Shown: piece by piece, positions 6,558 to 24,896 of the stretch
Layout of the letters: each line of letters opens with the position of its first letter
Position numbering within the stretch: position 1 is the stretch's first letter
Virus record (IMG/VR): IMGVR_UViG_3300048837_002345
Span: 1-24,896 of that record
Length of the DNA stretch: 24,896 nt
Direction: 5' to 3' (one strand)
Source of the DNA: a virus
The notes under the pieces: model-generated
Seen by the model: only the letters and a program-made list of their open reading frames with translations
Told to the model about the DNA's origin: nothing
The model's database searches: none
Position numbers and translations under genes: made by a program

Positions 6558-7790
6558 TCAGGCATCGGCCAGCACCTCCAGCGACATGCCGCCGGTCACG
6601 AAACCGGGATGACGGATAGGGTTGCGCGCCACCAGGTCGGTCTCGCGCCTGGCGTCGCCCAGGGCGCGATACGCCACCACCAGCGCAGGCAGCGTGGCCG
6701 GCATGGAGATTGTCGCGAGGCGCGGAAGATCCGCGCAGCGAGCGGTGATATCGCGCACCATCGCGGTGCGCAGATCCATCAGCGTACTGAACACCGGCAC
6801 TGGCGCATCGGCCGCCTCGTCGTCGAGCGCGTCAGCGATCCGCTCGCGCAGTGTGGCCGCCTGCTGATAGCTCATCCGTCGCGCCGGATCGGCCGTGCTG
6901 GCCGATCCGAAATCGAGCCGGGCCGCTGCCCGCGCGGATTCGATCACTGCCGTCCGGCGCAGCAGCGAATCGACCGCCGCTCGATTCGCAGCCTGGGCGC
7001 GACGCGACGGCGTCGTCGTCGGGACCGGCGGGCGGCTTGAGCTGTAGCCGTACAATCGGCCCAGGGCGCCGACCGAATCGGCCGGCCTGGACAGGGAGCC
7101 GGAGAGGCCAGCCATTAGGCCGGCGATGCGCGAGGCAAGCGTCAGCGGGGTGCGGACCAGGCCCGACAGCGAAGATGTCACGCCAGTCAGCTCGGAGGCG
7201 AAATCACCCAGCACGGAGAGGTCCGGCGCCAATCCGGCGCGCGCCGCATCAAGCGCCGCCATCGCCTCGCCCAGCACCGCGACGGCATCGGTAGAGACCC
7301 ACTCCGGCAGGCCATCGACGCTGAACACGTTGCCGAAATCGGCGATGGCGGAATCGGTGGCCGTGCCGGCGGCCGAATCGACGAGATAGGCGGTATCCGC
7401 CCTGGTTGAGGGCTGGAGATTGTCGCCGGTCTGGGTAAACCGGAGCGTGAAGCGCGCCACTCGGCCTTCGTCGACGAGATCCTCGGTGAACCTGAACGGC
7501 GCCGTCAGCGCCACATTCAGACGGCCGAGAGTCGGATGCACCAGCTCGCCTGGGCCTGGCTTCTTGAGGGCATCGCGCAGGGCGTCGCGCGCCTTGGCGT
7601 AATCGTCTCCGAGGACAAAGGCATTGAGAGTAAATTCTCCTGCCTTGAGCCCCATGTCCTCGACGAACGGCTCGTCGCGCTGCGGGTACTCGAACAGCAC
7701 GCCGCGCCGGCCTTCCTCGGTATCGGCGGTCCTGACATGGAAGGGCGCGCCACGGAAGCTCGCGCGCTGCAGCTGATCACGCCAGGTCAC
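6558..7790 (-). CDS. Tail/DNA-circularisation protein, Mu gpN (gp43) family
   Basis: A 410-residue protein whose first 120 residues match the DNA-circularisation N-terminal family: WRDQLQRASFRGAPFHVRTAD...GRRGVLFEYPQRDEPFVEDMG and later DALKKPGPGELVHPTLG. This is the Mu gpN pattern. In Mu, gpN is a tail protein and is also described in connection with joining phage DNA ends after injection. The remainder is helical and alanine-rich with YRALGDARRETDLVARNPIRHPGFV near the end. It uses a GTG start in a GTGA overlap with the tape measure gene. Confidence 0.92.
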   Translation of the reverse strand: MTWRDQLQRASFRGAPFHVRTADTEEGRRGVLFEYPQRDEPFVEDMGLKAGEFTLNAFVLGDDYAKARDALRDALKKPGPGELVHPTLGRLNVALTAPFRFTEDLVDEGRVARFTLRFTQTGDNLQPSTRADTAYLVDSAAGTATDSAIADFGNVFSVDGLPEWVSTDAVAVLGEAMAALDAARAGLAPDLSVLGDFASELTGVTSSLSGLVRTPLTLASRIAGLMAGLSGSLSRPADSVGALGRLYGYSSSRPPVPTTTPSRRAQAANRAAVDSLLRRTAVIESARAAARLDFGSASTADPARRMSYQQAATLRERIADALDDEAADAPVPVFSTLMDLRTAMVRDITARCADLPRLATISMPATLPALVVAYRALGDARRETDLVARNPIRHPGFVTGGMSLEVLADA

Positions 7791-15537: not shown

Positions 15538-16053
15538 TCAGGCCGCAGCGGCTTCGCCGGCCTTGCTCTTGAGGAATTCCTCGGCGCTGATGCCGAGCTG
15601 GCGGCACACGGCAAGCTCGGTTTCGCTGAGCTTGCCGTCGCCGCCGCCGCCCCCGGCCGGCGGCCTGCCGCCGGTCTGGCCGCCAGGTGCGACGACGACG
15701 GGCTGCGCGTCGATGAAGCCCTTGAGCGCGGCCAGATCGCCGGCCAGCTTGCGGGCGTGCGGCTCGGTCGCCGGGGTGAGCTTGCCGGCAGCCAGGCCGT
15801 CGGCGATCACCTTGTCGACCTCGGCTTGCGCCTTTTCGGCTTTCAGCGCGGCCAGCTCGGTGGTGGCGGTGGCCAGCTCGTTGCGCACGCCGGTGAGCAC
15901 GCCAACCTCGACGTACTTGGCCGGATCGGGCGCTGCGCCCTTGAGCGCCGCAACTTCGCCCTGGTGGGCGGACTTCACGGCGTTCAGCGCGGCGAGCGCC
16001 TCGGCCTCGGTGGCGGTTTCGGCCAGGCCGAGCGCCTTCAAGAGTTCCTTCAT
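15538..16053 (-). CDS. Nested scaffold protein, Mu gpZ-like, from an internal start
   Basis: Inside the protease gene, in the same frame, an ATG at 16053 (residue 180) is preceded by a perfect AGGAGG (16064-16059) at five-base spacing. Translation from it yields 171 residues, MKELLKALGLAETATEAEAL..., which is just the coiled-coil scaffold half. Mu is known to make a scaffold (gpZ) from an in-frame start within gene I, as lambda makes Nu3 within C. The ribosome site is seen; production of the short form is inferred. Confidence 0.8.
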   Translation of the reverse strand: MKELLKALGLAETATEAEALAALNAVKSAHQGEVAALKGAAPDPAKYVEVGVLTGVRNELATATTELAALKAEKAQAEVDKVIADGLAAGKLTPATEPHARKLAGDLAALKGFIDAQPVVVAPGGQTGGRPPAGGGGGDGKLSETELAVCRQLGISAEEFLKSKAGEAAAA

Positions 16054-16590
16054 GGTTTCCTCCTGGGTGGGTTGGTCGGGGAAAAGCTTTGCGGCCAGGG
16101 CGGCGAGATCCGTCAGGCCGTCGATGCCGGCAAAGTTGGTGAGCGCGGCATGGGCGACCGCCAGCACGCGGCCGGTGCGTTTGTCGTAGTTGAAAACAGG
16201 GCTGATGTAGCGGTACTGCTTTGCGGCGATCATCGCGGCAGCCTCCGCCGTCCACTCGACGTCGACGGCATAAAGACCGTCGTCGCGCGCCTCCAGCTTG
16301 CCGATCCAGCCGGCTGCCGGAGCCGGCCTGCCGTTGACCTCGGCATGCAGGGTCTGGTGTTCGTAATCGATCACACGCGCATCGCCACGGGCATTGAAGG
16401 CGGCGGCGACAGCCGCCGCGCCTTCACGCTCAAGCAACCAGCCGTCCGGGACGCCGACCGGGCGGCCGGAGCCGTCGGCGGCCTTGAAGCGACCATAGGG
16501 CAGCAGGCGGAAAGCCTTGGGCGGCGTGACGCCGCCGGCCGTCAGATCGACGGAGAGGGCGGCAATGGCAAAGTCGGCGCGGCGTTTCAT
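15538..16590 (-). CDS. Head maturation protease/scaffold, Mu gpI family
   Basis: A 350-residue protein of Mu gpI type. The protease half (about 1-175) shows FRLLPYGRFKAADGSGRPVGVPDGWLLEREGAAAVAAAFN, VIDYEHQTL, GWIGKLEARDDGLYAVDVEWTAEAAAMIAAKQYRYISPVF and AALTNFAGIDGL. All are conserved in Mu-like head proteases; the histidine of DYEHQ is a likely catalytic residue. The C-terminal half is a coiled-coil scaffold, with a glycine-rich linker near 303-322 before a final helix. Its 3' half can also be made alone from an internal start (16053). The ATG is an ATGA overlap with a doubtful 82-codon frame upstream, and the proposed late-promoter motif ends 33 bases upstream. Confidence 0.93.
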   Translation of the reverse strand: MKRRADFAIAALSVDLTAGGVTPPKAFRLLPYGRFKAADGSGRPVGVPDGWLLEREGAAAVAAAFNARGDARVIDYEHQTLHAEVNGRPAPAAGWIGKLEARDDGLYAVDVEWTAEAAAMIAAKQYRYISPVFNYDKRTGRVLAVAHAALTNFAGIDGLTDLAALAAKLFPDQPTQEETMKELLKALGLAETATEAEALAALNAVKSAHQGEVAALKGAAPDPAKYVEVGVLTGVRNELATATTELAALKAEKAQAEVDKVIADGLAAGKLTPATEPHARKLAGDLAALKGFIDAQPVVVAPGGQTGGRPPAGGGGGDGKLSETELAVCRQLGISAEEFLKSKAGEAAAA

Positions 16591-16835
16591 GCCCAGAATC
16601 CTGCCGGTTTCGGCCTGGCCGATCCGCTAAAGCGTTTTACTAATTCAGGCGCCCGAAAACCGGGGAAACCGGCTTTCCCTGCAAACCGGCCCGACCGAAG
16701 CCCGCAGGACCGGCCCACCGACCCCGTTAAACCCCCGTTAAAAACCGCTGACGGAAATTTTCCGGGGGTAGATAGCCATCCGGGGCTTCCAGCGGCACAC
16801 AGGGCCTGTATCGCGGCCGGCGCAAAAAGCCTCAT
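16587..16835 (-). CDS. Doubtful 82-codon frame in the F-I gap
   Basis: An open frame starts in an ATGA overlap with the F-like gene, after GGAGG, and ends in an ATGA overlap with the protease gene, so its layout looks like a real gene. Against this, its third codon positions are far less GC-biased than in neighbours, its sequence (Gly/Arg/Ser/Phe-rich, no motif) resembles nothing I know, and it contains tandem repeats, a palindrome and the 21-bp motif. It is kept as an open question; noncoding DNA seems more likely. Confidence 0.25.
   Translation of the reverse strand: MRLFAPAAIQALCAAGSPGWLSTPGKFPSAVFNGGLTGSVGRSCGLRSGRFAGKAGFPGFRAPELVKRFSGSARPKPAGFWA
16623..16643 (-). promoter_or_regulatory. 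Proposed late-promoter/activator site, copy 2 (PI-like)
   Basis: On the minus strand TTAGTAAAACGCTTTAGCGG, plus one further matching base, is the near-exact repeat of the site at 23271-23291 (20 of 21 identical). The core TAAAAC-GCTTTA is an imperfect dyad. It lies 33 bases before the protease/scaffold ATG, the place of the Mu PI late promoter. Recognition by the Mor/C-family protein encoded at 24268 is inferred. Confidence 0.65.
16722..16743. repeat. Tandem 11-bp repeat in the F-I gap
   Basis: Two adjacent units, CCCCGTTAAAC and CCCCGTTAAAA on the plus strand, match at 10 of 11 positions. They lie about 80 bases upstream (minus-strand sense) of the 21-bp motif, near the palindrome at 16752-16764. 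Possible protein-binding repeats. Confidence 0.5.
16752..16764. repeat. AT-cored palindrome CGGAAATTTTCCG
   Basis: CGGAAA and TTTCCG arms form a near-perfect 13-base palindrome. It is in the short low-GC gap between the F-like and protease genes. Too short for a terminator and without a U-run; a protein-binding site is possible. Confidence 0.4.
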
Positions 16836-17599
16836 GCCGACCCCTCCAATCCGGCCCGCGCGACCTTCTCGGCCAGCATCCGGTCCAGGTTGGCCTGCCG
16901 GCCGCCGGGCGGATAGGCGAACTCGGGGTCGACGCCGGCCGGCACGCGGCTGGTCTCGCCTGTGCGCTTGTTCACGTAATCCTGGTAGCGCTCGGGCGGC
17001 GCGGCGCCGACCTTGGCGCCCATGCGGTCGAGCTGGCGGCTGCCGAGCTGGATCACCCGGCACTTGCAGCCCCAAGCGCGCACCGGGTAGTGCGACTGCC
17101 ACCACGGATCGTCGGCGGGCAGCACCATGCCGTCCCAGGCGGCGTGCTCCTTGCGCTCGTGCGCCGATGGCGTGTGGTCGTACATGAGGTACGGCGCCTC
17201 GGCCTTGGTTTCCTGGATGCGCACCCACTGCCCCTCGCTGTGCGCCTGGCGCAGGTTGGTGTCGTAGATCACCTTGAGGCGGCGCGTGCTGCCGAGCTGC
17301 ACTTCCTTCGCCTCGCCTGTGGCCGGATCGGTCATCACGGCGCGCCCCCACCAGCCGCGCCTGACCAGGTTCGGTTTGAGGGTTTCACGGAAGGTCTCGA
17401 AGGTGGTGCCCAGCTCGATGGCGGCATCGACCTGCTCGCGGATGTCGGCCAGCAGGTCGAGCTGCATGGCCTTGGCCACCGTGAAGGCGGCCTGGTGTTC
17501 GGCCTGCCACACGTCGCGATGGTCGAAGCCGATCTTGAAGCCTTTGCGGCGGAAGAAGGCGATCGCTTCCTCGGGCGGCAAGGAGAGCAGGCGCAGCAT
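16832..17599 (-). CDS. Minor head/morphogenesis protein, Mu gpF (SPP1 gp7) family
   Basis: A 255-residue protein. The pattern KVIYDTNLRQAHSEGQWVR (about 109-127), YLMYDHTPSAHERKEHAAWDGMVLPADDPWW (about 138-168) and HYPVRAWGCKCRVIQL (about 170-185) is that of the phage Mu F / SPP1 gp7 head morphogenesis family. It sits on the portal, usually a few copies per head, and may be co-injected. It is shorter than Mu gpF as I recall that protein. It starts in a TAATG overlap with the portal gene. It is followed by a gap with altered composition instead of Mu's gene G. Confidence 0.92.
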   Translation of the reverse strand: MLRLLSLPPEEAIAFFRRKGFKIGFDHRDVWQAEHQAAFTVAKAMQLDLLADIREQVDAAIELGTTFETFRETLKPNLVRRGWWGRAVMTDPATGEAKEVQLGSTRRLKVIYDTNLRQAHSEGQWVRIQETKAEAPYLMYDHTPSAHERKEHAAWDGMVLPADDPWWQSHYPVRAWGCKCRVIQLGSRQLDRMGAKVGAAPPERYQDYVNKRTGETSRVPAGVDPEFAYPPGGRQANLDRMLAEKVARAGLEGSA

Positions 17600-19149
17600 T
17601 ACCGGCCGTCCTCCGGCGGCTCGGCGCGGCCGAAGATCGCGGCGGCGAACTGCGCCTGCGCCAGCGCCTCGGTCAGGGCGGCCGTGTCCATCTGCTCCAG
17701 CAGCTGCGGCAGGCGAGCCTTGAACTCCTCCAGGCTGCGACACTCGGCGGCCAGGCGCTCGATCGGGGAGACCAGCGGGGCGGTGACGTGCTCCCAGTCG
17801 GACGCCAGATCGTCGGAAAACACGTCGAATTCGTCCTGGGCCGGTGCGCCGGCCTTGAGGGCGGCGCGGGCGGGAACAACCTCCGGCGATGCGGCGGCCG
17901 GCAGCGCAAGCACCTTCTGCCCATCCTTCGGCGGCGGGATGCGCAGCTTGTCGTGCACATAGTCGGCCGGGATCTCGAAGCCGACCTTGACCAGCTTCGG
18001 CAGCGCATCGGCGTACAGCTTGAGATCCTCCGGCTCGCGCGTGTCGAAGGAGAAGCGCGGCAGGCGGCGCGGATCGCGTGCGCCCCGATTGATGGCGAGT
18101 AACGGATAAACCAGATCGCGCGACAGCGTGGCGGCGAGCTGGATGGCGTCCGACACCAGCAGGTCGTGGCGCACCTCGTTGTGCACGTTGCCGAGCGCGT
18201 TGGTGCTGCTCTTGCCGTCGGCCTGGCTGGTCAACGTGCCGCCGAGGATGGCCTTGCTCTGCGTGCGCTCGCACCAGTTGATCATGGCCTCGAAGGGGTC
18301 GTGCTGGCCCTTCGCCGCTTCCTCGAACTCGATCATCATGCCTTCGGGGATGATGCCGGCGGCGTTGTGGCCGATGCCGGAGACTGCGCGCAGCAGGGTG
18401 AGCTTCTCCTGGTCGGAGGCGCCCGACGGGTATTTGCCCAGGCGCAGCGGCAGACCGTAGATCTCCAGGAACTCGGCGAGATCCCGCACCGAGTAATTTT
18501 TAAACAAATACGGCCAGGCCAGCACGCGGTGGAGGCCGCCGCGCGCGATGTAGCCGCTCTTCGCCCGGTGGGTGTGCAGAATCCAGCCGAAGGGGCGCAG
18601 CTCCGCGCCGTCCGGCGTGTTGTCGCGCAGGCGCAGCTCGTTGCGGTTTTCGCGGCCGGGCTGGAGCCAGCTCTGCGGCCGGTGGGTAATCGCCTTCGGC
18701 AGCCACTCGCGGCCGGAGAGCTGCCACTCCAGCTCCAGGGCGGCGAAGCCGTGGCCGATGCCGTCGAGGCAGTCGAGCAGCACGTCCTCGAAGTTCGGCA
18801 CATCGAGCAGCATCTCGCGCAGCCAGGCGGCGTCGTCTTCCTCGGCCTTGCTCGGATTGCGCGGCGGCAGGATGTCCCAGTCGAGCGTCAGCAGGGCGCG
18901 CTTGCGCTTGCTCATCTCGGCATAGACGTGGCCGTCCTTTTCCTCCATGTCGAGGAAGAGGTCGTGCTGCGCGGCGATGTCGCCCTGCTCGGCATCGGCG
19001 AGGATGCGCGCCAGCTTGCCCGGCGTGAGGCCGCGCGACGGATGCGAGGCGAACTCCTGCGCCAGGTGGCCGAGGCGGGAGGTTTGCGGTTCTCTCAGGG
19101 CGGCGCGCTCGATCGGGCGGCCGAACTGGTCGAGGATCTGTTGTGCCAT
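17599..19149 (-). CDS. Portal protein, Mu gp29 family (DUF935)
   Basis: A 516-residue protein with the DUF935 hallmarks: PSRGLTPGKLARILADAEQGDIAAQHDLFLDMEEKDGHVYAEMSKRKRALLTLDW at about 37-92, LLDCLDGIGHGFAALELEW, a PRNP-type connector, and MINWCERTQSKAILGGTLTSQ. It forms the dodecameric ring at the head vertex through which DNA is packaged. Its start is a TAATG overlap with the large terminase gene, which fits the standard terminase-portal-F order. Confidence 0.95.
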   Translation of the reverse strand: MAQQILDQFGRPIERAALREPQTSRLGHLAQEFASHPSRGLTPGKLARILADAEQGDIAAQHDLFLDMEEKDGHVYAEMSKRKRALLTLDWDILPPRNPSKAEEDDAAWLREMLLDVPNFEDVLLDCLDGIGHGFAALELEWQLSGREWLPKAITHRPQSWLQPGRENRNELRLRDNTPDGAELRPFGWILHTHRAKSGYIARGGLHRVLAWPYLFKNYSVRDLAEFLEIYGLPLRLGKYPSGASDQEKLTLLRAVSGIGHNAAGIIPEGMMIEFEEAAKGQHDPFEAMINWCERTQSKAILGGTLTSQADGKSSTNALGNVHNEVRHDLLVSDAIQLAATLSRDLVYPLLAINRGARDPRRLPRFSFDTREPEDLKLYADALPKLVKVGFEIPADYVHDKLRIPPPKDGQKVLALPAAASPEVVPARAALKAGAPAQDEFDVFSDDLASDWEHVTAPLVSPIERLAAECRSLEEFKARLPQLLEQMDTAALTEALAQAQFAAAIFGRAEPPEDGR

Positions 19150-20723
19150 TACCAGGCTCCTGCGGCGCCGGCCAGGGCGTCGGCGTCGATGTCGTCATTG
19201 CCGTCGCCGTCCCAGCGTGCGGTCGAGGACGGCGCCGGCGTGTATTCGATGGGCGCCACTTCGCGCTTCATGGCGTAGTGGGCGAGAAACAGGGAGATCG
19301 CGAAGTCGCCGTGGCGCTGCACCTTCTTGCCGTCGGCCGCCTGCGTCTTGGCGCGGCCGAGCTTCGGCACGCCGTCGATCTTCTTGATCGCGCGCAGATC
19401 GTCGCGGCACTGATCGTCTCTCGGCAGGTTGTCGAGGGTGGCGTCTTCCAGCGCCGCCTTGAAGCGCGGCATGTTCGCCAGGTAGAAGGCGTCGGAGAGC
19501 TTCACCTGCTCGACGCGGGAATGGCCGAAGGTGTCGGCGGCGAACTCGGCGAGGTCCGCGCCGTTGCCGGTGGCGTCCATCGCGGCCGAATGGAAACGCG
19601 GAAGGTTATCGCCGATGAACTTGACGATCTGGCGCTGCTGGGCGAAGGGGCAGTTGCCGATTTCGATCACCAGGCGCGAGCGCTCGACGAGATCGGTGCC
19701 TTCTTCAAGCACCGTAATGACAGAGAGGTCGCCGACGCGGGCGAAGTCCTGCCCGAAGCCGTGGCGGCGATTCTTGTCGAGCCTGGCCAGCTCCGGCGCC
19801 ACCACCTCCCGCAGCCAGGCGTCGACCTCGGCCGCGCGCACGGGCTCGGGCAGCAGGCCGAACTCGTCCGGCCAGCGCTGGCGGATGATCGGCTGATCTG
19901 ATCCGACAGGCGCCATACGCGCCTCGACCAGGGCGAGCGGCAGGTAGACGCCGCCGCCCTTTGCCGGGACAACGTCGAGTTCCTCGGCCGCGTCGTCGCC
20001 GTAAAAGTCGCGCACGTCGGCCACCCAGGCGTCCTCGGCCTCCTGGCTCCAGGGCCTGCCCTTGCGCAGGCAGACGCGGCGGAATAGCCCGTCGGCCACG
20101 GCATTCCCGAAGGCGATGCGATGCACGCTGCCCTTGCGCTTGCCGGCGCGGATCTCGTTGATGAGTTCGTTGAAGACGTTGTCCTCGCCGTTGTGCGTGC
20201 TGATGATGCGGACCTTGTCTCCCCACATCAGCATGGCCATCGCGGCCTTGATGAGGCCGGGTAGATCCGGCGCGAAGGCCGCCTCGTCGATGACGATCAC
20301 GCCCTGCTTGCCGCGCAGGTTCGCCGGCCGGCTGGACAGCGCGACGATACGCTTGCCCGACTTCGGGAAGTCGATGCGGTAAGTCTTGATCTCCTTGTCG
20401 CCATCGTCGAGGAAGATGCCCTCCTCGACCTCGCCGGCGGCGAGGTCGTAGGCGCGCGCCCACATGGCGCATGCCTCGATGTACTCCAGCGCCATGTCCT
20501 GCGTGGCGGAGATGTAGAAGACGTTGGAGCCGCCCTCCCCGGAGGCGATCAGAACGTCGTCGGCAGCCTCGGCCCAGGTGAGGCCGATGCGGCGGCTTTT
20601 CTCGGCAACCTTCAGCGGGGAATCGTCGGCCACCCAGCGCTGCTGGTAGCCGAGCAGCACGGGAGGCGGCGCGTCGTCCTGGAATGCCGCCGACAGCGCG
20701 GAGGCGAGCGGATTCAATTTCAC
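19149..20723 (-). CDS. Terminase large subunit, Mu gp28 family
   Basis: A 524-residue packaging motor. ATPase part: a Walker A-like EKSRRIGLTW at 41-50 in the variant form used by Mu-like terminases, Walker B VIVIDEAAF at 142-150 with D146-E147, and coupling motif ISTH at 174-177. Nuclease part (RNase H fold): D325 in GFGQDFAR, D382 in AMDATGNG and D472 in HGDFAISL as the acidic metal-binding set. Mu-type phages package by headful from integrated copies, cutting into host DNA. It starts with GTG in a GTGA overlap with the small subunit gene. Confidence 0.95.
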   Translation of the reverse strand: MKLNPLASALSAAFQDDAPPPVLLGYQQRWVADDSPLKVAEKSRRIGLTWAEAADDVLIASGEGGSNVFYISATQDMALEYIEACAMWARAYDLAAGEVEEGIFLDDGDKEIKTYRIDFPKSGKRIVALSSRPANLRGKQGVIVIDEAAFAPDLPGLIKAAMAMLMWGDKVRIISTHNGEDNVFNELINEIRAGKRKGSVHRIAFGNAVADGLFRRVCLRKGRPWSQEAEDAWVADVRDFYGDDAAEELDVVPAKGGGVYLPLALVEARMAPVGSDQPIIRQRWPDEFGLLPEPVRAAEVDAWLREVVAPELARLDKNRRHGFGQDFARVGDLSVITVLEEGTDLVERSRLVIEIGNCPFAQQRQIVKFIGDNLPRFHSAAMDATGNGADLAEFAADTFGHSRVEQVKLSDAFYLANMPRFKAALEDATLDNLPRDDQCRDDLRAIKKIDGVPKLGRAKTQAADGKKVQRHGDFAISLFLAHYAMKREVAPIEYTPAPSSTARWDGDGNDDIDADALAGAAGAW

Positions 20724-21259
20724 GACGCGATCCCCAGGATGCTCTTGCGGATCTCCGACACGGACGAAGCGGACAGCCCGCCCTTCTTGGCGATGCGCTC
20801 CGCCGCCTCGGCCGCCGCCTTGACCTTCGCGTTAACCTCGGTTTCCCATTTCTTCTGATTAACGGAGGCGCGCGACAGCTTGGCGATCGCCTCCGCCGCC
20901 TTGGCCAGCAGCTTGAGGCGGGCCTCCGGCTTGGCCTCCTCGGCCTCCTGCAGGGCGACCAGTACGTTGAAGGTCTCGGTCTGCACCAGGCTCATCACGG
21001 CGGCGCTGCGCTGGTCGGCGTCGTCGGGCGCGGCGGCGGCGATCGCGCGGGCCGCCTCGGTGGATGCCTTCACGGCGGCAAGCTTCTTCTCCAGCTGCTG
21101 GCCGTAGCGGTGAATGCTCGAGCTGCTGATGCCGAATCCGCGTCTCGCCAACTCGGCCTCGAAGGCCTCGTAGCCGGAGAAGTTGCCCTCCGCGAGCGCC
21201 TGGTCGAGCCAGGCGCGCACCTCCGGGGGCAATCCGAGAACCTTGGATCTGCGCGCCAT
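20720..21259 (-). CDS. Terminase small subunit-like protein, Mu gp27 family (DUF3486)
   Basis: A 179-residue helical protein. ARRSKVLGLPPEVRAWLDQALAEGNFSGYEAFEAELARRGFGISSSSIHRYGQQLEKKL at 2-62 is the DUF3486 pattern, containing a helix-turn-helix. Members lie directly before the large terminase in Mu-like phages and probably recognise the packaging start. The rest is coiled coil (about 62-160). ATG 21259 overlaps the preceding stop (TGATG); in-frame TTG and GTG codons just upstream would add only two residues. Confidence 0.92.
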   Translation of the reverse strand: MARRSKVLGLPPEVRAWLDQALAEGNFSGYEAFEAELARRGFGISSSSIHRYGQQLEKKLAAVKASTEAARAIAAAAPDDADQRSAAVMSLVQTETFNVLVALQEAEEAKPEARLKLLAKAAEAIAKLSRASVNQKKWETEVNAKVKAAAEAAERIAKKGGLSASSVSEIRKSILGIAS

Positions 21260-21567
21260 CACCAATACTTCGCCGGACGGGCGATGCCGGGATCGCAGTC
21301 AACCGTGTATTCGGCGACATCGACGCCATAGCGCGTCAGCTCGCCGTGCCAGCGGCCGGATGGCTCCTTGTGGATCTCGACCAGGTCTCGGTCGCCCAGG
21401 TAGTCCAGCTCGCGCCGAAGTTCCAGCGGCGTGGCGTCCGGGTAGCTCGCCTGGACGACGGAGAGCACCACGTCCTCCCAAGCGCCTATCGGCCGAGCGT
21501 TGTTGAGCGTGAGAATGATCTGCCAGCGGATGGTTTCGCGCCGGACTTTCGCAAGGTCAACCGCCAT
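21259..21567 (-). CDS. Small winged-helix-like phage protein (Mu gp26 position)
   Basis: A 102-residue protein reading VRRETIRWQIILTLNNARPIGAWEDVVLSVVQASYPDATPLELRRELDYLGDRDLVEIHKEPSGRWHGELTRYGVDVAEYT. Its helix-helix-helix-strand pattern with RYG and a late DYL..R.LV looks like a winged helix. Similar proteins of about 100 residues lie between DUF2730 and DUF3486 genes in many Mu-like phages (VpaChn25_0724 family). ATG 21567 is preferred over 21579 because GGAG lies eight bases upstream. DNA binding and a role in packaging are inferred. Confidence 0.78.
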   Translation of the reverse strand: MAVDLAKVRRETIRWQIILTLNNARPIGAWEDVVLSVVQASYPDATPLELRRELDYLGDRDLVEIHKEPSGRWHGELTRYGVDVAEYTVDCDPGIARPAKYW

Positions 21568-21916
21568 GTTTGGCTCCATTCAGTTGCACCAGTTTGAGTT
21601 CGCTGTAGAGCGCGTCGAGCTTCGCCTCGATGACGCTCTGCCCCCGGATGTAGTCTTCGCGGCGCACGTAGTTGAGCGGAAGGTCGGCCTTGAGCGTGAG
21701 AACCTCGCGCTCGGTGTCCCGGCTGATCTTCTCCAGCTCGTTGAGGCGCTTTTCCCATTGCGCCTGGCCGGATTGGCGCAGCAGCTCCTGCGCCTTGAAG
21801 CGCTCGCCGAGACGTTTCTCGAACTGATCGAGCAGCACCTTGCCGAAGGCACCGAGAGCGCCGAAAAATGCCAGCAGCAGCACGATGAGCTGCCACAGTT
21901 CGAGCTGTACCGTCAT
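21557..21916 (-). CDS. Small membrane/coiled-coil protein (DUF2730-like)
   Basis: A 119-residue protein with one membrane segment at about 7-27 (LWQLIVLLLAFFGALGAFGKVLL) followed by a long charged coiled coil (about 30-75) and the tail LPLNYVRREDYIRGQSVIEAKLDALYSELKL. This tail motif is usual in DUF2730-type proteins of Mu-like phages at this locus. The topology, with a short outside end, a membrane helix and a long cytoplasmic or periplasmic helix, could also suit a lysis accessory protein, and no other spanin is seen. It starts in an ATGA overlap with the DUF1353 gene. Confidence 0.75.
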   Translation of the reverse strand: MTVQLELWQLIVLLLAFFGALGAFGKVLLDQFEKRLGERFKAQELLRQSGQAQWEKRLNELEKISRDTEREVLTLKADLPLNYVRREDYIRGQSVIEAKLDALYSELKLVQLNGAKHGG

Positions 21917-22395
21917 GCGCCCTCCGGGGAAAATACGACCGGGTTGTCGTCCGGCACGTCCGGGTCGCCGCCCCGGCCGACAACCACGCCGGCATGCCAC
22001 AGCGAGGCGCGCAGCTTCCACATGCCGTCCTCGATGCAGTGTTCGTAGAATTGCCGATGCACCGTCGCCGACCACGTGCTGTAGCCGATCTGCCGCTCCT
22101 TCATCATCTGGCAGAAGCAGTCGTGAATGAGCGAGGGGCGCATCGACGAGTCGGTGTCCCAGGTCGGGCCGCTTGCACCGTCCCAGGCATAACCCTTCAT
22201 GACGTAGAGGACGCCGGCGGCGGTCAGGACAAACCAGTCATGCAGGATGTCGCGGCCCGGCCTGACCGGCGTGCGCACGACATAGTCGGCGACCAGCTGG
22301 TACTTGTAGCCGCGCTTGTAGGCGATGCGGCGCATCGAGGGCATCGCATCGATCTCCGCGATCTGCGGCATGCCGATCATGCAGACGCCCGTCAT
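21913..22395 (-). CDS. DUF1353 family protein
   Basis: A 160-residue protein showing the family core YQLVADYVVRTP...FVLTAAGVLYVMKGYAWDGASGPTWDTDSSMRPSLIHDCFCQMMK. The block YAWDGASGPTWDT followed by L.HD is conserved in DUF1353, which is common in tailed phages. Function is unknown; the histidine and aspartates could bind a metal. It lies in the lysis/accessory block, joined by ATGA overlaps to the HNH gene before it and the membrane protein after it. Confidence 0.82.
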   Translation of the reverse strand: MTGVCMIGMPQIAEIDAMPSMRRIAYKRGYKYQLVADYVVRTPVRPGRDILHDWFVLTAAGVLYVMKGYAWDGASGPTWDTDSSMRPSLIHDCFCQMMKERQIGYSTWSATVHRQFYEHCIEDGMWKLRASLWHAGVVVGRGGDPDVPDDNPVVFSPEGA

Positions 22396-22736
22396 TTGGC
22401 GTACACCTTTCGTTCCCAGCGGTCTTTGCAGACCGTGCCCGAGCACGACTTGATTGCGGAGGGCAACCACTGCAGGTTGCGCACGGCGTCGCAGCCGCCG
22501 ACGGCGAGCGGGATGACGTGGTCGATGGCCCAGCCTGGGCACGATCGTTGCGGCAGGCCGGTGGCCGGACAGGGATAGCGGCTGGCAAAGGCATTCAGCA
22601 CGTCGGCGCGGCGCAGGATGCGCCCCCTGGCGTCACGCTTCGGCTCGCCGCAATAGCGCGTCTCCTGCAGCGGATCTGGCGCCGCCTGGGCGCCGCAGGC
22701 GAACAGCAGGACGGCCAGCGCAAAGAGGAGCTTCAC
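22392..22736 (-). CDS. Exported HNH-motif protein
   Basis: A 114-residue protein starting at GTG 22736 (GTGA overlap with the endolysin gene). Residues 1-18 (KLLFALAVLLFACGAQA) are a typical Sec signal peptide, possibly ending AQA/A. The mature part has an HNH-type motif: D72-H73-V-I-P-L-A-x-G-G and N87-L-Q-W-L-P, with six cysteines (29, 56, 66, 82, 98, 103) that could form disulfides or bind metal. Similar signal-bearing HNH proteins occur near lysis genes of other phages. HNH proteins inside cells can aid packaging, but export suggests a periplasmic act such as digesting DNA. Function not established. Confidence 0.78.
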   Translation of the reverse strand: MKLLFALAVLLFACGAQAAPDPLQETRYCGEPKRDARGRILRRADVLNAFASRYPCPATGLPQRSCPGWAIDHVIPLAVGGCDAVRNLQWLPSAIKSCSGTVCKDRWERKVYAK

Positions 22737-23239
22737 GCCAGATCCTCCAGGACGCCGCCCTTCGGCGGCACCATGTCGGCGCGGAGCCAGGCCGCCACGT
22801 CGAAACCGGGGCAGGTCTTCAGCCACTCCCACGGCTCGACCAGGCCGTCGTTGTCCCTGTCGGGCGAGAGATCGCGGTGGCCGGTGACGCGAGCGTTGGG
22901 AAAATCCTTGCGCAGCCGATCAACCAGGGCGGCCAGGCTGCTCCATAGCGCGGCGGTGTATTTGTCCGTGCCGACGACGCAGATGCCGATGGATTTGCGA
23001 TTGTTGCCGACGACGTGGGCGCCGATCTCGTCGAGGTGCCGCCCGGTGGCGATGGCGCCGTTCGTATAGAGGACGAAGTGGTAGCCGATGGCGCCGAGCT
23101 GCGAATTCTGCCGCGCGCGCCACTCGCCAAGACGTTTGAAGCCGCGCGCCGCGTGCCACTGATCGATGTCGAGCGTGGAGACCCAGCGGCCGTTCGGCGT
23201 GGCCGAGCAATGAACGACGATCAGATTGATTTCCCGCAT
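22733..23239 (-). CDS. Endolysin: N-acetylmuramoyl-L-alanine amidase (Amidase_2)
   Basis: A 168-residue T7-lysozyme-like amidase that cleaves the bond between MurNAc and L-Ala in peptidoglycan. Zinc ligands appear to be H10 (VVHCSA), H121 (VTGHRDL) and C143 (KTCPGF), with Y53 (IGYHF) near the active site. IGICVVGTDKY and DNDGLVEPWEWL complete the family pattern. There is no signal peptide, so a holin would be needed; none is certain in the window. The ATG at 23239 has no good ribosome site and lies within a strong hairpin, suggesting limited or delayed translation. It is the first gene after the proposed late promoter. Confidence 0.94.
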   Translation of the reverse strand: MREINLIVVHCSATPNGRWVSTLDIDQWHAARGFKRLGEWRARQNSQLGAIGYHFVLYTNGAIATGRHLDEIGAHVVGNNRKSIGICVVGTDKYTAALWSSLAALVDRLRKDFPNARVTGHRDLSPDRDNDGLVEPWEWLKTCPGFDVAAWLRADMVPPKGGVLEDLA

Positions 23240-23267
23240 GCGCGTAGGCTACGCATGCGTGCGGGGA
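23233..23267 (-). promoter_or_regulatory. Hairpin over the endolysin start codon
   Basis: The minus-strand RNA reads CCCGCACGCAUGCGUAGC then CUACGCGCAUGCGGG. The inner arms GCGUAG and CUACGC are perfectly complementary, as are the outer arms CCCGCA and UGCGGG, separated by a small internal loop. The endolysin ATG (23239-23237) is in the 3' arm. It could hide the start codon, or act as a DNA operator because the centre is also a DNA palindrome. Confidence 0.6.
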
Positions 23268-23270
23268 GGT

Positions 23271-23291
23271 TCCGCTAAAGGGTTTTACTAA
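23271..23291 (-). promoter_or_regulatory. Proposed late-promoter/activator site, copy 1 (Plys-like)
   Basis: The minus strand reads TTAGTAAAACCCTTTAGCGG plus one more shared base, identical to 16623-16643 at 20 of 21 positions. It sits 31 bases before the endolysin ATG in a 70-base noncoding gap, the place of the Mu Plys late promoter. It is the first promoter-like position downstream of the Mor/C-family gene. Confidence 0.65.
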
Positions 23292-23309
23292 CGATCGGCG
23301 ACTGGAAAG

Positions 23310-23531
23310 TCAGTCTGGAGAGCGCGGCGTTACAACAGCGCGCCCTTTGTCGCCGATCTGGAGGCACAGCCGCGAGATGTAGCCGTCGCCGTAATCGACG
23401 CGCCACTGATCTCCTGGGCTGGTTTCGTTCGGCAAAAACACAACCGCTCCGCGCTCGCCTGACGGATGCTCGATCATGTCGCCTTCGTGAATGCCTTGCC
23501 CCGCGAAGTCTGTCCAGGGTGCTTTGTTCAT
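23310..23531 (-). CDS. Small unknown protein, possible SH3-like fold
   Basis: A 73-residue protein (MNKAPWTDFAGQGIHEGDMIEHPSGERGAVVFLPNE...WRVDYGDGYISRLCLQIG). Alternating short strands with GDMIEHPSG and a WRVDYGDG turn look like a small SH3 or KOW-like barrel. It begins two bases after the exported protein gene and ends just before the proposed late promoter, so it is probably the last gene of the middle operon. I do not recognise a named family. Confidence 0.65.
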   Translation of the reverse strand: MNKAPWTDFAGQGIHEGDMIEHPSGERGAVVFLPNETSPGDQWRVDYGDGYISRLCLQIGDKGRAVVTPRSPD

Positions 23532-23533
23532 CT

Positions 23534-23902
23534 CTACCCCTTCACCGGCGACCACTCGCCGCAGTGCTCGGACTTCCTGCCCTTCACCTTCGAGCAGGTG
23601 CGCTCGACCTCGACGCCGTCCGGCCGCGTGGTGCGCATCTTGATGAACACGCCGCCCTCGGCGAGGAAGGCGTCGATGGCCTGGCGCGTGGCGGCCTTGG
23701 CCCTGGCGACGCGGGCCTCGTCGTCGCCCTTGCGGGCGTGCACTCGGATCAGCAGCGTGCTGCCGAGGCCGTCGATGTCGCTCACGCGGCACTTGACGCC
23801 GTCCTGCTCCGCCGTCAGTTGGCCGCACAGGCCGGCGGTGGAACCGGCGACAGATGCCGTCGAAAGCAGCGCGGCGACAAAGGCGGTGATGAGCTTCTTC
23901 AT
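23534..23902 (-). CDS. Exported cysteine-containing unknown protein
   Basis: A 122-residue protein with a clear signal peptide: KK near the start, hydrophobic LITAFVAALLSTASVAG, and probable cleavage after about residue 20. The mature part has cysteines at LCGQL, VKCRV, RTCSK and EHCGEW, a count of four that allows two disulfides. A central stretch is helical (RAKAATRQAIDAFLAEGGVFIKM). It has AGGAGG four bases before the ATG. Not recognised. It might act at the cell envelope, such as in superinfection exclusion or lysis timing, but this is speculative. Confidence 0.72.
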   Translation of the reverse strand: MKKLITAFVAALLSTASVAGSTAGLCGQLTAEQDGVKCRVSDIDGLGSTLLIRVHARKGDDEARVARAKAATRQAIDAFLAEGGVFIKMRTTRPDGVEVERTCSKVKGRKSEHCGEWSPVKG

Positions 23903-23911
23903 GATGCCTCC

Positions 23912-24268
23912 TCAGAAAAGAGACCCCTGGCGCTTGCGGATCATCTCGGCGCGGACGGCTTTGACGATTTGGTAGATGCGCATGACGGTCAGATTGTACT
24001 CGCGGGCGAGCGGCTCGTGGTTGGTGCCGTTGAAGCGCTCGAAGATCTCCAGGTCGCGGCGCGACAGTTCGTAGCGCTCACCCTTCGGCAGGTACAGGCT
24101 CTGCCCGGACCAGTTGCTGCGCACGTGCTCGGCGACCGCCAAGCCAATGTCGGCCGCGCGCTCCAGCTCGATGCCGTTCTCGGCCAGCTTGGCGGCAACC
24201 TGGTCGGCCAGGTCGGCCAGTAGCTCCGGGTAGCCGCGCTCCACAAGGCTGGGCTGGGCTTCGCTCAT
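23912..24268 (-). CDS. Mor/C-family transcription activator
   Basis: A 118-residue protein with the Mor family pattern: LLADLADQVAAKLAENGIELERAADIGLAVAEHVRSNWSGQSLYLPKGERYELSRRDLEIFERFNGTNHEPLAREYNLTVMRIYQIVKAV. The N-terminal dimerisation part and the YLPKG strand are conserved; residues about 85-105 form the helix-turn-helix. Mu Mor activates the middle promoter and C activates four late promoters, among them Plys and PI. Only one such gene is in the window, directly before the late block, so it could serve as the late activator. ATG 24268 overlaps the previous stop (ATGA); starts further upstream lie inside the preceding gene. Confidence 0.9.
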   Translation of the reverse strand: MSEAQPSLVERGYPELLADLADQVAAKLAENGIELERAADIGLAVAEHVRSNWSGQSLYLPKGERYELSRRDLEIFERFNGTNHEPLAREYNLTVMRIYQIVKAVRAEMIRKRQGSLF

Positions 24269-24498
24269 CGTGTTTTCCCCTTGACGATCTTCTCTACGCC
24301 CATCGGCATCCACACCAGGCCGCGCGAATCGAGCCAGCCCATGACGATGCGCTCGTCGATCTTCCTGGCCAACTCTTTGTCGATGACGATCTTGATCTCG
24401 CGCGGCCGGCCGCAGCGCTCGAACCAGGCCCAGGCAACCACCGCGCCGAAGCCGGCGCCGGCGAGGAAGGCGAAGGCGAGCATGGCGTGGCCGCTCAT
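24265..24498 (-). CDS. Small membrane-anchored unknown protein
   Basis: A 77-residue protein. Residues about 5-24 (AMLAFAFLAGAGFGAVVAWAW) form one membrane helix with a Gly-rich face; the remainder is a basic cytoplasmic tail (REIKIVIDKELARKIDERIVMGWLDSRGLVWMPMGVEKIVKGKTR). It begins in an ATGA overlap with the GemA gene and ends in an ATGA overlap with the Mor/C gene. I do not recognise a family. One helix plus a charged tail could suit a small lysis or inhibitory protein, but this is only a topology guess. Confidence 0.7.
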   Translation of the reverse strand: MSGHAMLAFAFLAGAGFGAVVAWAWFERCGRPREIKIVIDKELARKIDERIVMGWLDSRGLVWMPMGVEKIVKGKTR

Positions 24499-24896
24499 GC
24501 GCGGCCTTCCCGGCGCTGCAGGTGCTTGTTGAGCGCCGCCGTGATGCGCCACAGCTCGGTGTAGCTGCACAGCTCCAGCGGCTTCATGACGGCGCCACCG
24601 TGCTCGATGCCGGTCATCTGGCGGGCGATGCCCTCGACGTAGCGCTTCTGTTTGCCGCGCTCGATGCCCAGCTCACGGCACAGAACGCAGATCTTGCGCA
24701 GCATGGGGCGGCAGTCTTCGGCGGCGCGGTCGATGAAGGCCCATTCGTTCGGCCGCGCCGGGCGGCCGTTACCGATCTTCGCCCCCCGGCTGGACAGGTG
24801 ATCGAGCACGCTCTTCCGGCCGGCGAAGTCGAGATCCGCCGCCGAGCGCACACGGGCGATCACCCACAGCATGTCGCGGTAGGTGCCGTCGTCCAT
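24495..24896 (-). CDS. gemA: GemA (Mu gp16) family protein, N-terminus beyond the window
   Basis: The 133 residues seen match the Mu gp16/GemA (DUF1018) family: DDGTYRDMLWVIARVRSAADLDFAGRKSVLDHLSSRGAK, RPMLRKICVLCRELGI and KRYVEGIARQMTGI. In the family, D-x-TYR is preceded by about 15-20 residues (an AKIHIAKKQLG-like opening), so the Met at 24896 is probably internal and the true start lies outside the window. GemA is reported to affect host gene expression and DNA supercoiling in Mu. It heads a run of overlapping genes ending in the Mor/C activator. Confidence 0.88.
   Translation of the reverse strand: MDDGTYRDMLWVIARVRSAADLDFAGRKSVLDHLSSRGAKIGNGRPARPNEWAFIDRAAEDCRPMLRKICVLCRELGIERGKQKRYVEGIARQMTGIEHGGAVMKPLELCSYTELWRITAALNKHLQRREGRA

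Follow-up and report, generated by a model that had tools for sequence, protein, structure and literature searches.

Putative activator sites at two probable late promoters of a Mu-like phage and a predicted hairpin over one of the start codons

Introduction

Which protein acts at a pair of near-identical sites that stand before two late genes of a Mu-like phage, and where do the mRNAs of these genes begin? The sites lie in the virus record IMGVR_UViG_3300048837_002345, a fragment of 24,896 bases that was analysed at its full length and is called the window here; as it is a fragment, site counts hold within the record. The window comes from a Mu-like phage with its genes on the minus strand. 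One site precedes the lysis gene lys and the other the head protease gene I, the genes served by the Mu late promoters Plys and PI. An earlier interpretation of the letters alone (the sequence-only reading) had taken the pair for late-promoter sites of a Mor/C-family activator, and this is supported by our analysis. The explanation that we consider probable is that the two are Mor/C activator sites at Plys and PI, that the lys and I mRNAs are leaderless, and that a hairpin at lys blocks translation of read-through RNA. Beyond what had been noticed before, this brings in a -10 box, a predicted start at the AUG, the lys hairpin and a site before the gpP gene in two relatives.

Results

The sequence TTAGTAAAACSCTTTAGCGG occurs at two places on the minus strand of the window, 16624-16643 and 23272-23291. 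The Plys copy (23272..23291) reads TTAGTAAAACCCTTTAGCGG and the PI copy (16624..16643) reads TTAGTAAAACGCTTTAGCGG; the sequence-only reading, which reported two 21-bp sites differing at one base, was exact in this, its sites being the 20-mer plus one flanking base. With up to 3 mismatches allowed there are 2 matches in the window and 0 in 100 shuffles, and no third match to the 20-mer was found in the whole record. We also scanned the window with a promoter profile of 46 columns, made from 16 promoters of relatives (the window's two copies were excluded, while close relatives of both were included). It scores the two sites at 55.0 and 42.0 bits and the next best place at -5.1, and it detects no site before the gpP-like gene located at 6565, so that both scans agree with the earlier statement that no third copy was found, there or elsewhere in the record. 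The two sites are thus confirmed as real and above chance. Their surroundings are unrelated, as had been claimed: the copies are 95% identical within the site, 20% in the 40 bases upstream and 40% in the 20-bp spacer. The gap to gene I is the 33 bases previously given, while the gap to lys, given as 31, is 32 when counted from the 20-mer to the ATG. The symmetry noticed earlier is also present, although its core is not TAAAAC-GCTTTA; the exact dyad is TAAA-N4-TTTA.

The identities of the genes around the sites hold up as well. The lys gene (22733..23239, minus strand) encodes an amidase (phrog_822, 6.9e-46) and gene I (15538..16590, minus strand) a head maturation protease (phrog_328, 1.7e-98). 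The activator gene placed just upstream is a member of the Mor/C family (23912..24268, minus strand; PF08765, E=1.1e-33; phrog_532, late transcriptional activator, 1e-35), with an ATG at 24268 and MSEAQPS... as its likely start. The sites precede lys and I in the correct orientation, as in Mu, and the suggestion that two late promoters use an activator site unlike the Mu C site is supported.

In order to follow the site in related phages, we searched for relatives through the Mor protein and found 10 loci in viral contigs and 4 in species genomes (titled Rhodocyclaceae, Betaproteobacteria, Propionivibrio and Burkholderiales). The motif TAAARNNCTTTA lies downstream of mor, on the Mor strand, in 14/14 of these loci, two of which (L012 and L019) are the same DNA; at one of them, L017, the site is AGCTAAAGCGCTTTAGCT, a perfect palindrome. 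Comparison of the window with three relatives shows 90-100% identity in the lys site and 25-35% in the 40 bases upstream of it. In three relatives a terminator-like G+C hairpin and T-run, seen by eye, end right at the lys activator site (L012:10990-11036, L013:10590-10631, L020:10770-10812).

A composite pattern has 9 matches in four host genomes, before lys (3), I (4) and gpP (2), as against 1 for the reversed control. The gpP gene of L035 (1.1e-85) and the protease I genes of L037 and L039 were assigned by family search, the genes at the other six matches by their translations. An ATG opening a long open reading frame (ORF) stands at offset 52 or 53 in 9/9 matches (offsets run from the first base of the site), and two of the three lys matches have an in-frame GTG 6 nt before the ATG. 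Some relatives therefore have the site before protease I and, in two cases, before gpP, as at the Mu late promoters; the earlier idea of a two-promoter late regulon fits the window and does not extend to the whole clade. A stricter form of the pattern gave 1 match in 395 genomes sampled evenly from the family of a host, G001 included; this match is inside the G001 prophage, and the reversed control also gave 1. A repeat scattered through host chromosomes, against which the sequence-only reading had wanted a check, is ruled out, the pattern being absent from 394/395 genomes. In one relative (L005:11044-11130) gene I is extended by about 27 nt after the promoter: a new ATG is exactly at offset 53 and the former start reads GTG, as if the position of the AUG were constrained.

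A -10 box, TAGCCT, lies 20 bp 3' of the Plys site (23246..23251, minus strand), and the candidate at the same offset of PI is CAGGAT (16598..16603, minus strand), which includes AGGA, a word resembling a Shine-Dalgarno (SD) sequence. The start codon comes 6-7 bases after the -10 at both promoters, and the dyad is centred 30.5 bp before it. We tested this spacing with a query for the site alone (score at least 16), which ignored the -10 and the start codon and returned 116 hits, or 79 representatives at <80% similarity; among these are the training sites, chance hits and palindromes read backwards. TAnnnT is enriched at offset 40, where it occurs in 22/79 (other offsets: mean 0.8, maximum 4), as is nAnnnT with 40/79 (elsewhere: mean 4.4, maximum 11). 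The first ATG of an ORF of at least 75 aa is at offset 51 (1), 52 (8), 53 (5), 54 (1), 59 (1) or 66-97 (22), with none in 41; random positions have such an ATG at 52/53 in 0.9%, at 54-65 in 4.1% and at 66-87 in 6.8%. The offset-51 case is AFS ORF32, with an annotated start at 87, and in the offset-54 case, L021, the -10 is one base later.

If transcription begins at offset 52, that is 7 bases past the last base of the -10, the genes fall into two groups, leaderless ones and ones with a leader of at least 14 nt, enough for an SD sequence, and the dyad centre is at about -42.5. The position of the -10 alone then predicts the 5' ends: +1 would be the A of the lys ATG at 23239 and, for gene I, 16591, with the ATG at +1/+2, and both mRNAs should be leaderless. 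No SD-like word is present before lys, as judged alongside the other starts of the window (24 examined). The PI promoters of three relatives (L037, L039, L040) have TATCTT or TAAGCT as their -10, keep the ATG offset and lack AGGA, which favors a leaderless I mRNA in the window too, at less confidence than for lys. We found no sigma-70 -35/-10 pair in 23150-23700, and a plain sigma-70 promoter is rejected as the meaning of the motif, which is too short to hold both a -35 and a -10. In L015 (L015:2657-2740) the ATG at the predicted +1 opens an 8-codon frame, possibly a 5'-terminal upstream AUG, and the long ORF follows at offset 97.

The Plys -10 lies in the loop of an inverted repeat (23235..23259, minus strand). 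Its 5' arm, 23251-23259, is entirely upstream of the predicted +1 and would be untranscribed from Plys, and its 3' arm, 23235-23243, covers the AUG, which is paired in the folding prediction. The 9-bp stem folds at -15.0 kcal/mol (z -2.86 for the 26-nt stretch; 3/200 shuffles as good), in comparison with just -2.8 kcal/mol for the predicted leaderless lys RNA. In a read-through RNA of 101 nt, too, the best fold places the AUG region in a stem.

We then looked at this layout in the loci collected, among them the best 80 of 259 from a Mor alignment. The profile scan of the loci gave 90 hits, of which 62 passed rules on site, -10 and ORF start, leaving 36 representatives with the ATG at 52/53 in 14 and further on in 22. 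Five viral contigs with the pattern and no Mor gene in the piece (L024, L025, L026, L030, L032) were left out; the contig L004 (6,750 bases), which has gene I and in which no Mor was seen either, was kept. When the region from -20 to just past the start codon was folded, 24/36 representatives beat their shuffles at p<0.05, with a median z of -3.0; training sites are among the promoters scored. Two of the 36, L046:833 and L050:24019, are backward readings of holin sites; they were removed from the later hairpin comparisons, which used the remaining 34 with two JBD5 and two Mu promoters, 38 in all. As controls we used 213 starts from AFS-2018a, KP12, JBD5, MuM16-2, Mu and the window, a subset of genes drawn from annotation tables and gene calls. 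Hairpins are significant (p<0.05) in 10/16 leaderless-class promoters (median z -2.72) and in 5/213 controls (median 0.31; Mann-Whitney 5e-8), and in 17/22 SD-class promoters (median z -3.32) and 6/213 controls (median 0.20; Mann-Whitney 5e-11); both classes together give 27/38 promoters and 11/426 control windows. The 5' arm is mostly promoter DNA that is untranscribed from the late start, and the 3' arm abuts or contains the SD or the AUG. Between the read-through and the late RNA the start region loses more of its pairing in the SD class than in 191 control genes, the window's starts being left out (p 9e-7).

Named phages with this architecture include Pasteurella AFS-2018a (4 sites), Klebsiella KP12 (4), Escherichia PhiKM (3) and Pseudomonas Bise (1, with the endolysin at +1); the leaderless type is found at baseplate wedge genes of AFS-2018a and KP12. 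At comparable places, other words are repeated in JBD5, JBD25 and MuM16-1. In Pseudomonas JBD5 the word is GTTGAACCCCTTC, present at two places, and after each copy a hairpin extends up to the ATG. Hairpins also occur near lys or I in JBD25, MuM16-1 and MuM16-2, where the -10 and the start could not be fixed. The repeated-word search gave no pair for SHP3, nor for lys and I of Mu, and is therefore not a sensitive search. Phages whose Mor is 57-78% identical to that of the window go with TAAARNNCTTTA, as does Bise (Mor 35% identical), and JBD25 (39%) has another word; the type of site thus tracks Mor relatedness no more than loosely.

Mu itself shows part of the pattern, with positions relative to +1 accurate to about 2 nt. 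At PI, CTGCTCAC pairs with bases beside the SD (p 0.006). At Mu lys, bases -8..+1 pair with the start codons, a borderline result obtained with a longer interval (z -1.92, p 0.052); a shorter interval ended before the pairing partner (z +0.19) and was counted as a miss among the 22 SD-class promoters. In excerpts of PMC4461284, Mu oligonucleotides are said to hold 20 nt past the start, from which the lys transcript begins about 6 nt past TAGACT and 21-24 nt ahead of the ATG codons. The Mu lys and I leaders are about 21-25 nt long.

Additional observations concern single phages. An element that could combine a terminator, an SD hairpin and a late promoter is seen in AFS-2018a and two viral contigs resembling it (L052:3249-3345, L071:9142-9220, L117:8321-8400), where a T-run stands between a hairpin and the ATG. 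Annotated anti-CRISPR genes are directly upstream of the JBD5 I promoter with its leaderless-type hairpin (L128:18396-19814). In Shewanella MuM16-1 a gene annotated as a reverse transcriptase lies between the gpG-like gene and protease I (L051:13568-14524).

The gene order of the window is GemA, Mor/C, amidase, Gp27 terminase small subunit, terminase, portal, gpF-like and protease I, followed by major head protein, neck, sheath, tube, tape measure, two baseplate hubs, baseplate wedge and tail fibre. The GemA-like gene (24495..24896, minus strand; PF06252, 2.3e-15) is incomplete at the end of the record.

Discussion

We read the two sites as activator sites because of their position and orientation, the link to a Mor/C gene, the dyad, the restriction to prophages and the -10 box at a fixed distance. 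The window's own Mor/C-type activator would bind the dyads at Plys and PI, each about 42.5 bp upstream of the transcription start, where the dyad would replace a -35 and work with the TAnnnT-like -10 located 20 bp downstream of the site. Transcription would start at the A of the ATG or one base before it and yield leaderless lys and I mRNAs. At lys, where the -10 would sit in the loop of the inverted repeat and the 3' arm would cover the AUG, read-through RNA coming from the mor operon would bury the start codon in its fold, and RNA from the Mor-activated promoter, made without the 5' arm, would be translatable.

Several observations weigh against this explanation. Conservation of the I site is of little weight, because in relatives the 40 bases upstream of it are themselves 68-93% identical, and the window's PI has a weak -10 and no stable hairpin (z 0.22). 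A missing SD is not unique to lys, as 3 of the 23 other starts in the window also score 0. Taken whole, the 101-nt read-through lys stretch does not stand out (z -1.41; 19/200 shuffles as good). In the leaderless class the drop in pairing over the first six bases and the AUG does not differ from controls (p 0.11), and pairing changes in the wrong direction in 5/38 promoters. Of the best 80 Mor-alignment loci, 39 have a profile hit and 41 have none, many of the latter with little DNA beyond mor. Four sites have a long ORF that does not start at +1: the ATG of L015 at offset 52 opens a short frame only, and L016, L017 and L023 have no ATG there. Finally, Mu is not leaderless, and its PP promoter is about 350 bases before P.

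A doubtful alternative is that the inverted repeats belong functionally to the upstream unit, chiefly as its transcription terminators or else as DNA operators, and overlap the late promoter by chance. A T-run precedes the ATG in 6/20 SD-class representatives, whose hairpins may also terminate transcription, and in three relatives a separate terminator was seen by eye just upstream of the site. The T-run is, however, present in 0/14 leaderless representatives, a terminator scan near the window's lys found none, and in 13/20 SD-class representatives the untranscribed arm pairs with 3 or more SD bases. The operator variant was set aside as unlikely: arm sequences differ, by eye, among promoters of the same phage (KP12, AFS-2018a), which favors pairing as their function over a shared protein site.

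It is unlikely that these are ordinary Mor/C late promoters whose transcripts start further upstream and carry a leader, with the hairpin in the 5' untranslated region serving mRNA stability or control. The leaders of Mu lys and I fit such an arrangement, and at the window's PI the AGGA 8 nt before the ATG could be an SD; this SD reading is weakened by the PI of the three relatives that keep the ATG offset without AGGA, and is retained as a rival. The -10 peak at a single offset, the two groups of start-codon distances, the mere 6-7 nt between -10 and ATG and the lack of an SD before lys all speak for leaderless mRNAs instead. It is very improbable that a host factor or another phage regulator binds the 20-mer, since the site is downstream of mor in 14/14 Mor-found loci, the pattern, in those host genomes that were searched, was seen nowhere but in front of phage late genes, and JBD5, JBD25 and MuM16-1 have other words at comparable places, even though the tie to Mor is loose (Bise, with a Mor 35% identical, has TAAAGCACTTTA, and JBD25, at 39%, another word).

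With Mor/C activation of leaderless lys and I mRNAs as the preferred explanation, a broader proposal seems to us evenly balanced between true and false: the Mor/C late promoters of Mu-like phages, Mu included, would contain a built-in check on transcript origin. DNA from about -12 to +1 would form a 5' arm whose 3' partner abuts or carries the SD or start codon, and lysis, head and tail genes would be translated well only from late-promoter RNA; one large class, comprising relatives of the window, JBD5-like Pseudomonas phages, and enteric and Pasteurella baseplate genes, would have late mRNAs that start at the AUG. The analysis gives Mor-type late promoters a definition that can be searched for in sequences, and leaderless lysis and structural mRNAs are predicted in proteobacterial phages. 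Gene callers that depend on SD sequences may misplace such starts. A textbook phage family is proposed to guard against premature lysis by the trick of T4 gene e.

Comparison with known systems

According to excerpts of PMC4390567, Mu Mor binds a dyad centred at -43.5 that replaces the -35 box. The window shares with the Mu late promoters a phage-encoded Mor/C-family activator, a dyad in place of the -35 at about -43 (for the window this value rests on the predicted +1), a TAnnnT-like -10 (TAGACT at Mu lys) and the genes served, lys and I, with P in some relatives. In Mu, however, C activates Plys, PI and PP and Mor activates Pm, whereas the window fragment has a single Mor/C gene; the site sequence is different; lys and I of the window are predicted to lack the leaders that carry the SD in Mu; and the site adjoins the P gene in two relatives, unlike the distant Mu PP.

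The lambda cI mRNA is leaderless. In the leaderless mRNAs of Deinococcus-Thermus, as described in part of PMC12340547, a -10 box lies next to the ORF, and the window has its -10 directly before the ATG in the same manner. Here, in contrast, the genes would be activator-dependent phage late genes in proteobacterial hosts, and a predicted hairpin is added. Kasugamycin is reported to leave the translation of leaderless transcripts unaffected (PMC5230787). Among the matches listed by our literature search, as far as their excerpts go, there is no report of leaderless or hairpin late promoters in Mu-like phages.

The closest likeness for the hairpin is in T4, where, according to excerpts of PMC3014915 and PMC2988022, genes e, soc, 49 and I-TevI have the SD and/or AUG hidden in an RNA helix, and where at e and I-TevI a late promoter overlies the 5' strand, so that late RNA without this strand is translated and longer RNA is not. 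The predicted lys hairpin of the window resembles that of gene e in covering the AUG with a 5' arm upstream of the late start. T4 late promoters, however, use the phage sigma factor gp55, whereas here the arrangement is found on Mor-type late promoters of many phages, and it includes cases that are predicted to be leaderless.

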